From Glycocaulis abyssi (GTDB lineage: Bacteria; Pseudomonadota; Alphaproteobacteria; Caulobacterales; Maricaulaceae): a stretch of 64,000 nucleotides of DNA. The stretch spans positions 1,761,001 through 1,825,000 of the forward strand of contig NZ_CP163421.1 in the NCBI RefSeq assembly GCF_041429775.1. Direction: 5' to 3'. The notes below the pieces were generated by a model that saw nothing but the letters and a program-made list of their open reading frames with translations, searched no databases and had not been told where the DNA came from. Each line of letters begins with the position of its first letter. Position 1 is the stretch's first letter. Made by a program: the position numbers and the translations under genes. Of the stretch, positions 43,946 to 46,726 are shown in pieces.

Positions 43946-43968
43946 GGGATTTTCCTTGGACCTCTCCA

Positions 43969-44030
43969 CCTTAGGTCCCCCGCCCCGCCTGTCCCCGTGA
44001 AAACGGGGAACGGGAGACCCATGCCGATGA
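43969..44030. repeat. half copy of family 2 palindrome
   Basis: GGTCCCCCGCCCCGCCTGTC followed by CCCGTGAAAACGGGGAACGG and GAGACCC. It is the inverse of the arrangement at 4190-4225 and 28442-28503. It lies directly upstream of the restriction-modification genes. Confidence 0.5.
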
Positions 44031-44100
44031 GCGTGAGGGCATTGGGCTTCTCCCTCATCCCTTCACCACGTGGCAACCCAACAACAAGATCAAGGCGCTG

Positions 44101-44230
44101 GGGAGTAGGGGCACTGCTCTTTACAGGAACATATATAGAACATATGGTGCATTCTGTTAACGAATTCATCTGCGCGTAGGTAGAATCGTTAACCAATTGC
44201 GATTCTTCTTCGCTAAAGCGGGACGGCACC
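44101..44230 (+). promoter_or_regulatory. AT-rich upstream region of the restriction-modification operon
   Basis: Base composition drops sharply here (for example ACATATATAGAACATATGG at 44129-44147). Two GTTAAC sites (TTAA at 44157-44160 and 44189-44192) and two GANTC sites (44183-44187, 44201-44205) lie before the methyltransferase ATG. A C-protein box is not evident, and no controller gene is present. The composition suggests acquired DNA. Confidence 0.4.
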
Positions 44231-45373
44231 ATGGCGAGCAAATATACAGCAATCGACTTGTTTTGCGGCGCGGGCGGCCTTTCGGAAGGGCTTCGCCAAG
44301 CGGGCTTCCATGTTCTCGCAGGCAACGACTACGATGCCGCCGCCGGGGCGACCTTTGCCCATACCCACCGCGAGGCCAAATTTCTTCCGGGTGCGATTCA
44401 GGACATTGATGCGGAAGACTTTCTTCAAGCTGCAGGCTTGAGACGGGGTGAACTCGATTGCCTCGTAGGCGGTCCACCTTGCCAAGCGTTCAGCGTTTAC
44501 AACCACCAGCGCGGCATGCATGACGAACGGAGCCAGCTTTTTCACGAGTATCTGAGGCTCGTAGAGGGCCTTCATCCACGCTGGGTGGTCATGGAAAATG
44601 TCACAGGCATTCTGTCGGCCGGCAATGGCGCAGCCGTCGAGGCGATCACCGACGGCTTGAGGAAGCTTGGCTACAGCAATGTTCAACACCGGACCCTCAA
44701 GGCTGAAGAGTATGGCGTTCCACAAGAGCGCCGCAGGGTGGTGTTTATCGGAAATCGCGTAGGCGCACCGATCGTTTGGCCTGAGCCGACGCACGGGCCG
44801 GGCAGGCTGCCGTTTAACACGATCAAGGATGCAATTGGTGATCTGCCGTTACTCGAGAACGGCGAAGATCGAGGTGTGACGAACTACGCTGCAGAGCCAT
44901 GCAGCTACTTTCAGTATCTAGTGCGCGATGGATCGAATGCGGTTCTCAACCACGCGGCACCGCGCTTGTCGTCCATCAATATCGAACGGATGCGCCATAT
45001 TCCGCCGGGCGGCAGCTGGCGCGACATTCCATTCGAGCTTTTGCCGAACGGAATGAAAAAGGCTCGCCGTTGCGACCACACCAAGCGGTACGGGCGAATG
45101 AAGTGGGATGGTCTCTCCTGCACCGTGCTCACCAAGTGTGACGTGCATTGGGGTGCTTACATCCACCCAGAGCAAAACCGTTCGATTAGTGTTCGAGAAG
45201 CGGCTCGGCTGCAGTCATTTCCTGATTGGTTCGAGTTCTTGGGTTCAAAAACCGAACAATATGTCCAGGTGGGCAACGCGGTTCCGCCCCTACTGGGCCG
45301 CTGCATAGGCGAGGCGATTTTGAAAGCAGACACTTATCACAAGGCCGCTGCCACGCTCGTTGCTGCTGAATAA
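44231..45373 (+). CDS. C5-cytosine DNA methyltransferase of a type II R-M system
   Basis: The 380-residue enzyme methylates cytosine at C5. Conserved motifs are in order: I AIDLFCGAGGLSEGL, IV GGPPCQAFS with the catalytic Cys, VI MENVTG, VIII EEYGVPQERRRVVFIG, and X QYVQVGNAVPP near the C-terminus. The target recognition region lies between VIII and X (about residues 180-320) and does not reveal the site. The TAA stop overlaps the ATG of the endonuclease gene (TAATG), so both are co-translated, with the protecting enzyme made first. The operon is flanked by palindromic repeats and has a lower GC content than its surroundings. Confidence 0.93.
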   Translation: MASKYTAIDLFCGAGGLSEGLRQAGFHVLAGNDYDAAAGATFAHTHREAKFLPGAIQDIDAEDFLQAAGLRRGELDCLVGGPPCQAFSVYNHQRGMHDERSQLFHEYLRLVEGLHPRWVVMENVTGILSAGNGAAVEAITDGLRKLGYSNVQHRTLKAEEYGVPQERRRVVFIGNRVGAPIVWPEPTHGPGRLPFNTIKDAIGDLPLLENGEDRGVTNYAAEPCSYFQYLVRDGSNAVLNHAAPRLSSINIERMRHIPPGGSWRDIPFELLPNGMKKARRCDHTKRYGRMKWDGLSCTVLTKCDVHWGAYIHPEQNRSISVREAARLQSFPDWFEFLGSKTEQYVQVGNAVPPLLGRCIGEAILKADTYHKAAATLVAAE

Positions 45374-46200
45374 TGCTGATATCAGAAATATTTGGCTTCG
45401 GCGTTGACAACCAGAGCCCCGAAGCCCGCTCTTCACGCAGCCAGAAGCGTTGCCCGTTCAGAAGCACCGCCTGCACAAAAGCCAGCAAGTCTGATCCGAT
45501 CGGCATTTGCTCTCTATCTGACGGCAACGAGGCGGCCTCATTGTGCCCTGTACGTTTTCTGGAAGGCGGGAAAGTGTTCCGCGATGCTGCACACATCGCT
45601 TTTGGCGAGGGAGCTGAGATCGCGGTATTTCCGGAAATCCGTATCCTTAAAGTTGTCCAGGAAGGACAAAAGACCCGTAAGATCGGTAAAGTGGACTTTC
45701 TAATAGGCAAAATTGAATCAGATAGAGTTGCAGACTTTGCCGCTATAGAAGTTCAAGCGGTATATTTTTCCGGTGGCGAAACAAGATCGCCAATGAAACA
45801 TTACTTGCAGCACGGCACCTTAGATATCGCAAACTCGGACAGGCGCCCCGACTTCCGGTTGTCGGCACAAAAAAGACTGGCACCTCAGCTTCAGCTAAAA
45901 GTTCCTGTTTTCCGTCGCTGGGGAAAGAAATTTTTTGTGGTTGTGGATAGCCACTTTTTCGCCAGTCTGCCGTCTTTCAAATCGACGACCGCAAGCAACA
46001 GCGAGGTCACTTGGTTGAGCTATCCGATTGCGAAGTCAGGTGATGATTACACTCTAGGCGCGGCCAACGTCGTTTATTCCGAGTGGGACGAAATTCAGAC
46101 ATCGCTCAGAGAAGGCACTCCACCGGAGCCGGCTGATATAATTCTGGAACTTCAGACCAAGCTGGATTCAAAGAAGCCGCCGCTTCGTATCAAATCCTAG
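45373..46200 (+). CDS. NotI-like type II restriction endonuclease
   Basis: The 275-residue protein resembles the NotI family. Four N-terminal cysteines (KRCPFRSTACTKASKSDP, IGICSLSDGNEAASLCPVRF) match the Cys4 iron site known from NotI. The catalytic pattern is KVDFLIG followed 18 residues later by AIEVQAVY, i.e. D...E-x-Q, as in NotI where glutamine replaces the usual lysine of PD-(D/E)XK. It starts inside the methyltransferase stop codon. Codon and base use (AT-rich, many AAA/AGC codons) differ from neighbouring genes, which supports horizontal transfer. NotI cuts GCGGCCGC, but related enzymes may prefer other GC-rich sites; the specificity here is not known. Confidence 0.82.
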   Translation: MLISEIFGFGVDNQSPEARSSRSQKRCPFRSTACTKASKSDPIGICSLSDGNEAASLCPVRFLEGGKVFRDAAHIAFGEGAEIAVFPEIRILKVVQEGQKTRKIGKVDFLIGKIESDRVADFAAIEVQAVYFSGGETRSPMKHYLQHGTLDIANSDRRPDFRLSAQKRLAPQLQLKVPVFRRWGKKFFVVVDSHFFASLPSFKSTTASNSEVTWLSYPIAKSGDDYTLGAANVVYSEWDEIQTSLREGTPPEPADIILELQTKLDSKKPPLRIKS

Positions 46201-46265
46201 TTGCAGTCCGGTGTGGCAATGCGCACAGCCATCGACGTCGCCATCACGTTCCGCCTCCGCCCCTT

Positions 46266-46363
46266 CGCCATTCCGGGCGAGCCATCGGCGAGACCCGGAA
46301 TCCAGCCATTCCCAGAAAACACACTGGATTCCAGACAAGCGCTTCGCGCTTTCTGGAATGACG
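46266..46363. repeat. intergenic palindromic repeat, family 3
   Basis: CGCCATTCCGGGCGAGC at the left and GCGCTTTCTGGAATGACG at the right with an AAGCGCTTCGCGCTT hairpin. It follows the endonuclease stop by 66 bases and is followed after 16 bases by a family 2 half copy. Confidence 0.7.
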
Positions 46364-46378
46364 AGGGAGGCGGCTGGA

Positions 46379-46413
46379 AAACGGACCCCGGCTCAGAGGC
46401 TGGGGACCCGGTG
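46379..46413. repeat. half copy of family 2 palindrome
   Basis: ACGGACCCCGGCTCAGAG and GCTGGGGACCCGG form one hairpin. As at 4078, 26518 and 28098, a family 3 repeat stands immediately before it. Confidence 0.5.
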
Positions 46414-46726
46414 GGTTTGCCTTCCCAAATACCCTGCCAGATTGCGCATATCCTACCCCAACCCGCCCTGCAGGGGGATAACTCCACTCCTTACCCCCCC
46501 AATTCCCACGAATAGGGGGATAGATGCCGCCGGCGGGCATCTGTCCTCCTTGTTGCGCTTTGGCAACACGGTGGAATCGGGGCCTTCGAACCGTGGAATC
46601 GGGGGGTGTGCACCCCTCATTTCGGGGCTGAAAACCCCTTAAAACGGGGATAGACGCCCTGCCCGCCCTCGCCAAGCGTCAAAAGGGGTGTTATCCGCCC
46701 CCCTATCCCCCATGGACAGGTGTGTC
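46414..46726. other. hairpin-rich gap between endonuclease and marC
   Basis: No gene is seen in these 313 bases. They contain the hairpin GATGCCGCCGGCGGGCATC near 46525, the direct repeat GTGGAATCGGGG at 46571-46582 and 46593-46604 (22 bases apart, each with a GANTC site), the palindrome GGGGTGTGCACCCC at 46605-46618, and C-rich runs. Part may be the marC promoter. Confidence 0.4.

Follow-up and report, generated by a model that had tools for sequence, protein, structure and literature searches.

The window, as we call the whole stretch of 64,000 nucleotides of the Glycocaulis abyssi genome analysed here, contains two plus-strand ORFs that share a single base and code for a C5-cytosine DNA methyltransferase and a NotI-family nuclease (Table 1). 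The nuclease gene adjoins the methyltransferase gene and both ORFs and their motifs are intact, which is the gene arrangement of a type II restriction-modification system. As read from the translation, the methyltransferase motifs GGPPCQ, ENV, PQERRR, and QVGNAVPP are all complete. In 500-bp windows the GC content of the pair is 0.49-0.59, compared to approximately 0.60-0.69 in the flanking kilobases; the value is 0.575 for the methyltransferase gene and 0.507 for the nuclease gene. A preliminary description of this DNA, made from the sequence alone, had already noted the lower GC content and the one-base overlap, and the composition profile and the ORF coordinates confirm both. The region immediately upstream of the pair probably holds its promoter.

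Table 1. Features of the methyltransferase-nuclease cassette and its surroundings (window coordinates)
Feature	Position	Strand	Evidence
Dispersed genus-wide repeat with hairpin, outside cassette	43948..44023	.	Many copies in G000, G001, G002, G005
Copy of uvrB 3' end (25 bp, one G shorter), left end of moved cassette	44087..44111	+	Alignment with G. albus; 17-mer
Upstream region of pair	44112..44230	+	Conserved with G. albus
C5-cytosine DNA methyltransferase, 380 aa	44231..45373	+	PF00145 E 4.5e-66; TIGR00675 above cut-off; dN/dS 0.11 vs G. albus
Recombination breakpoint, conserved methyltransferase part / diverged nuclease part	45281..45355	.	Identity to G. albus 0.96-0.99 on the methyltransferase side, ~0.76 on the nuclease side
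NotI-family type II restriction endonuclease, 275 aa	45373..46200	+	PF12183 E 7.7e-39; 3bvq profile match; fold to 3c25
Dispersed genus-wide repeat with inverted repeats, outside cassette	46251..46449	.	Many copies in genus genomes

Family, fold, and active site of the nuclease

The nuclease scored 133.9 bits against PF12183, whose curated cut-off is 22, and is thus a member of the NotI family. A profile built from 15 family members found NotI (3bvq) with an E-value of 1.5e-12; a search of solved structures with the single nuclease sequence did not recover NotI. An AlphaFold model of the nuclease, built on 29 aligned sequences (pLDDT 92.8), matched the NotI-DNA complex in Foldseek (E 1.4e-8, 13-14% identity) and 3c25 with a Z-score of 20.3 across 263 of its 275 residues, so that the NotI fold extends over the whole chain. 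The best structure other than NotI reached a Z-score of 6.1. Family matches, NotI profile, and fold together support the identity that had been proposed for the pair, namely a C5-methyltransferase with a NotI-like nuclease.

Four N-terminal cysteines (C27, C34, C46, and C58) and a D...E-x-Q arrangement (D108, E126-x-Q128), both of which had been read earlier from the translation, agree with the NotI alignment, and the latter residues are predicted to form an active site of the PD-(D/E)xK type. Alignment with NotI had been proposed as a check for loss of the catalytic residues; D108, E126, and Q128 align with their NotI counterparts and all three are kept. Among 94 aligned family rows, D108, E126, Q128, C27, C46, and C58 are present in every one and C34 in 92. 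The two exceptions are NotI, in which the alignment is displaced by an insertion and whose cysteine is paired in the profile alignment, and the verrucomicrobial relative L060, which truly has Gly. In NotI the four-cysteine site is an iron site. Besides fold, cysteines, and D...E-x-Q, which it shares with NotI (PDB 3bvq, 3c25; PF12183), the nuclease differs from that enzyme in being approximately 100 residues shorter, only 13-17% identical, and a member of another subfamily. This subfamily lies far from NotI in a tree of 46 of the 94 rows, and the branch of NotI itself is very long.

The cassette, its probable relocation, and the locus behind uvrB

Six Glycocaulis genomes were compared (G000, that of the window; G001; G002, taken to be that of G. 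albus; G003; G004; and G005). The nuclease is encoded in the genomes of the window and of G. albus, and no third carrier was found among the six. G. albus has the cassette (window 44084-46184) at 86% identity directly behind uvrB, and the genes that neighbour the pair in the window lie on other G. albus contigs than the cassette. At the site that the pair occupies in the window, G001 has flanks of approximately 92% identity and no pair. The left end of the cassette is a copy of the uvrB 3' end, and the only other place in the window's genome where the 17-mer at 44087-44103 is found is the end of uvrB, at a distance of 54 kb; the 17-mer precedes no other gene in that genome. The same 17-mer is found twice in G005, at uvrB and just before the insert there, and a partial uvrB end also precedes the insert of G003. 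Because a uvrB tail tends to accompany the inserts of this locus, the most plausible reading is that the window pair departed from this locus and is a relocated defence-hotspot cassette. The cassette would once have resided behind uvrB and would then have moved approximately 54 kb into the gap between a peptidase-like and a marC-like gene, taking the 25 bp of the uvrB end along. This relocation could have taken place in a donor species. The earlier view that the pair lies on acquired DNA is supported by the mobility of the cassette, which is evident from its other site in G. albus and from the uvrB scar.

The preliminary description had also regarded palindromic repeats as the boundaries of the pair. 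The palindromes are real (CCCCGT-GAAA-ACGGGG near 43994, and GGAATCCAG...CTGGATTCC at 46298-46333), but the boundary role did not hold, because they belong to dispersed repeat families with dozens of copies in Glycocaulis. This genus-wide dispersal, together with a copy of the left repeat that the pair-less relative G001 has between the corresponding neighbour genes, rules out that the repeats are the ends of a mobile element. The actual ends of the cassette lie at approximately 44087 and just past the stop codon of the nuclease gene.

The loci just downstream of uvrB (L051, at G000 C1:1856000-1872000, L052, L022, L053, L054, and L055) contain AT-richer DNA in all six genomes, approximately 2-2.7 kb where the right edge is visible and different in each, except that G003 and G005 have 0.9 kb of GC-richer DNA adjacent to uvrB in common. 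The right edge is common to the four genomes with traceable synteny. In G. albus the insert is the NotI-family pair. The window's genome carries a kinase and TPR pair that matches the phage-defence candidate M71A/M71B (PDC-M71A/B; E 2.1e-66 and 6.5e-76), G001 a DndB/DpdB-like gene with an MT-A70 methyltransferase, and G003 and G004 genes with weak matches to defence candidates; no content was recognised in the insert of G005. These comparisons point to a genus-wide insertion hotspot with partly defence-like contents, which makes the place a compact locus for defence genes in an alphaproteobacterial genus that has received little study. We found no account of uvrB defence hotspots in the literature searched.

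The two genes of the cassette differ in their history. Between the window and G. albus, dS is 0.26 for the methyltransferase, close to the 0.22 of uvrB, and saturated for the nuclease (NG86 dS approximately 3), and identity drops over a stretch of approximately 75 bases in the final part of the methyltransferase gene. Because of the dS contrast between the halves and the position of this drop, the nuclease half was probably replaced by recombination, either in the window species or in G. albus. The two nuclease proteins are nevertheless 84% identical, although their synonymous sites are saturated.

Methyltransferase partners of the nuclease lineage

Relatives of the nuclease were collected from GTDB genomes, and the best 80 of the 526 confirmed in one scan were inspected for their partners. 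Among these 80, 68 have a D12-class methyltransferase and five a C5-methyltransferase, six show no partner (L069, L099, L100, L123, L127, and L132, some of them at contig ends), and one (L097), whose nuclease ORF is interrupted and adjoined by a D12 gene, was excluded. Phylogenetic trees were calculated without L097, the truncated ORF L028 (G124), and the fused ORF L027 (G371), one on 46 and a more careful one on 24 of the 94 rows. The fused ORF (L027:6212-7513) starts as a C5-methyltransferase, of which it keeps the N-terminal part, and continues as the C-terminal part of a NotI-family nuclease; it is either a deletion fusion or an assembly error.

The C5-partnered relatives among the best 80 of 526 form the window's own clade, with nucleases that are 53-84% identical, whereas the sister rows L060-L064 (47-53% identical to the window's nuclease) have D12 partners. 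Across this switch, the nucleases of the window and L060 share 52% and those of L059 (C5) and L060 (D12) 55% identity. In L063 the D12 gene lies directly upstream of the nuclease gene, exactly where the window has its C5 gene. A second switch was found on plasmids: pBN5 of Paraburkholderia carries a C5 partner and a vsr gene, and an 85%-identical nuclease on an Aeromonas plasmid has a D12 partner, as have nucleases on Achromobacter, Burkholderia, and Variovorax plasmids that are 93% identical to the Aeromonas one (on the D12 side, partners were seen in five of seven records). In the 24-row tree the partner class needs two changes, and none of 200 bootstrap trees can be explained with only one. 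Placing the C5-partnered rows on one side of the tree was rejected (AU p 1e-55, 24 rows), and so was a single clade of the methyltransferases beside window-lineage nucleases (AU p 3e-5). The methyltransferase of L058 is sister to that of G017 and the one of L059 to that of Paraburkholderia, and the corresponding nucleases are far apart. These topologies indicate that C5 partners moved between nuclease lineages, and the guardian methyltransferase, of either C5 or D12 class, has been swapped repeatedly around the NotI-family nuclease. Searches for NotI-family or NotI-like nucleases, for M.NotI, for isoschizomers with different methyltransferases, and for NotI together with m5C found no account of such a partner exchange in the literature.

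On plasmids of Sedimenticola, Sphingobium (pSY2), and Roseivivax and in phage vB_Pae_U8, a C5-methyltransferase with 49-65% identity to the window's enzyme lies directly upstream of the nuclease gene, as in the window, but among their nucleases only that of Sedimenticola is close (66%), the other three being approximately 22-26% identical. In the Pseudomonas phage vB_Pae_U8 (L050, PP003920.1), the NotI-family nuclease of this pair is annotated as hypothetical. Nucleases of the window's family also occur in Prosthecobacter (L063, with the gene order of the window), Verrucomicrobia (L060), and Thermus brockianus and on pEST4011 and pIJB1, where the guardian belongs to the D12 (adenine) class instead of C5. 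By kind the window pair is an ordinary type II system with a precedent in Xanthomonas oryzae PXO99, in which a NotI/EagI-like gene is reported next to the C5-methyltransferase PXO_04735 (PMC4853030). That pair is broken in the more transformable PXO99A, and its loss was proposed as the reason for the better transformability (PMC4853030). The window pair also illustrates well both the exchange of partners and the departure of a cassette from a small defence hotspot.

Homologues of the D12 enzyme are absent from eight of nine C5-carrying genomes searched and the ninth has only a 48-residue match. Eight of ten D12-carrying genomes have some match to a C5-methyltransferase, the best long one 39% identical to that of the window; many of these genomes are incomplete metagenome bins. 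The target-recognition regions of 13 compared C5 enzymes are 46-97% identical, which suggests one target or core.

Proposed mode of action and target site

It is highly probable that the locus holds an intact type II restriction-modification pair, in which a nuclease of a NotI-fold lineage with exchangeable guardian is part of a cassette relocated from the uvrB hotspot. The C5-methyltransferase would place m5C in a short palindromic target on the host DNA, and the nuclease, presumably as a dimer with a cysteine-bound metal, would cut the same target when it is unmethylated, as in incoming phage or plasmid DNA. Because the guardian of this lineage seems exchangeable (C5 or D12), one nuclease specificity would probably be guarded by different methylated bases in different hosts. 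A restriction enzyme and its methyltransferase are commonly regarded as inseparable; the nuclease lineage described here is seemingly guarded by chemically different methylations in different hosts. If true, a single cut site could be protected through methylation of either of two bases, and its sequence would be the target of a family of which one scan confirmed 526 relatives. The 85%-identical nucleases with C5 and D12 partners offer a clean test case. More tentatively, and at somewhat less than even chances, the NotI-family nucleases of a large clade may all share one target that contains A and C, and the guardians (C5, D12/N6A, and an N4-type in a more distant branch) would be freely exchangeable modules that move between lineages. 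The nuclease rather than the pair would then persist, and the window pair, with its inter-gene breakpoint and uvrB scar, would be one product.

The D12 family is by its name N6-adenine-specific, and if its members produce m6A, the target must contain both A and C, which would exclude GCGGCCGC and CGGCCG. The chemistry is the weak step: M.Sbo13I, which has DPPY but belongs to a different group, was considered a probable N4mC enzyme (PMC2890505). A rather unlikely alternative is an EagI-type target, CGGCCG or another site with a GGCC core, with relatives' D12 partners that make m4C instead of m6A. The partner of the Klebsiella and Acinetobacter nucleases, which has SPPY, would agree with this reading. 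SPPY is usually read as m4C. The gene of Xanthomonas PXO99 next to a C5-methyltransferase gene reportedly aligns with NotI and EagI homologues (PMC4853030), and M.EagI is treated as a C-5 enzyme and C5 methylation of EagI-type sites described in PMC4722110. However, in addition to the adenine-specific classification, 66 of 69 D12 partner ORFs contain DPPY, and CGGCCG is equally low in Glycocaulis carriers and non-carriers. On balance, a site with A seems somewhat more likely than one with a GGCC core, and GCGGCCGC itself least likely.

Partner class and target may also have changed together in each lineage, which would make the C5/D12 switches uninformative about one shared target. Within the window lineage, a nuclease from a C5 row and one from a D12 row are 45-48% different, enough for a new specificity, but the nucleases of the second switch are 85% identical, and C5 partners with similar recognition regions stand beside nucleases of several lineages. 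We regard such a joint change as unlikely. NotI recognizes GCGGCCGC, which the preliminary description had considered as the target and found not depleted. The eight sites it listed are correct and two (42239 and 54177) had been missed; the total of ten compares with 11.85 +/- 3.19 in shuffled sequences, and in a 204-kb sample of the window's genome, window included, 20 sites stand against 22.4 expected. The lack of depletion thus stands, but non-avoidance does not make GCGGCCGC the target. That the pair is a NotI isoschizomer would be in line with the common family and fold and with the similar C5 recognition regions in partners of NotI-like nucleases (Roseivivax, phage vB_Pae_U8). It is nonetheless very improbable, as NotI is distant in sequence (Foldseek identity 13-14%), close relatives of the same lineage have D12 partners and the site lacks A, and the site is not avoided; the target of the window pair need not be that of NotI. 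Equally improbable is an inactive or decaying nuclease beside an orphan methyltransferase, which the lack of an avoidance signal, the mosaic history of the pair, and the fused ORF in the alphaproteobacterial relative L027 would fit, but not the intact ORF with all family-invariant residues and a protein sequence conserved despite saturated synonymous sites.

Avoidance was analysed for every palindrome of 4 or 6 bases, in the window, in 204 kb of its genome and 98 kb of G. albus, and in two non-carriers as well as four additional C5 carriers and six D12 carriers. No palindrome was scarce throughout the carriers and at normal frequency in the non-carriers. AGGCCT (20 sites, 80 expected) and TCATGA (16 sites, 51 expected) are low in the window's own genome only (204 kb). 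TCATGA occurs 314 times in the whole G000 genome and 598, 612, 626, 698, and 810 times in the other five of the genus; AGGCCT shows no general shortage in other carriers. G000 also encodes one further C5-methyltransferase and one PF01555 enzyme, and these or other systems could account for both shortages. The Acinetobacter plasmid pBspH9 is presumably tied to BspHI via strain NEB 394. An identification of its pair with BspHI was considered and dropped; its methyltransferase has SPPY, and no such assignment was found in PMC9122589. In 100 kb sampled from G001 (L147-L151), GTGCAC is absent where 13.9 sites are expected, which suggests a strong restriction system of that specificity.
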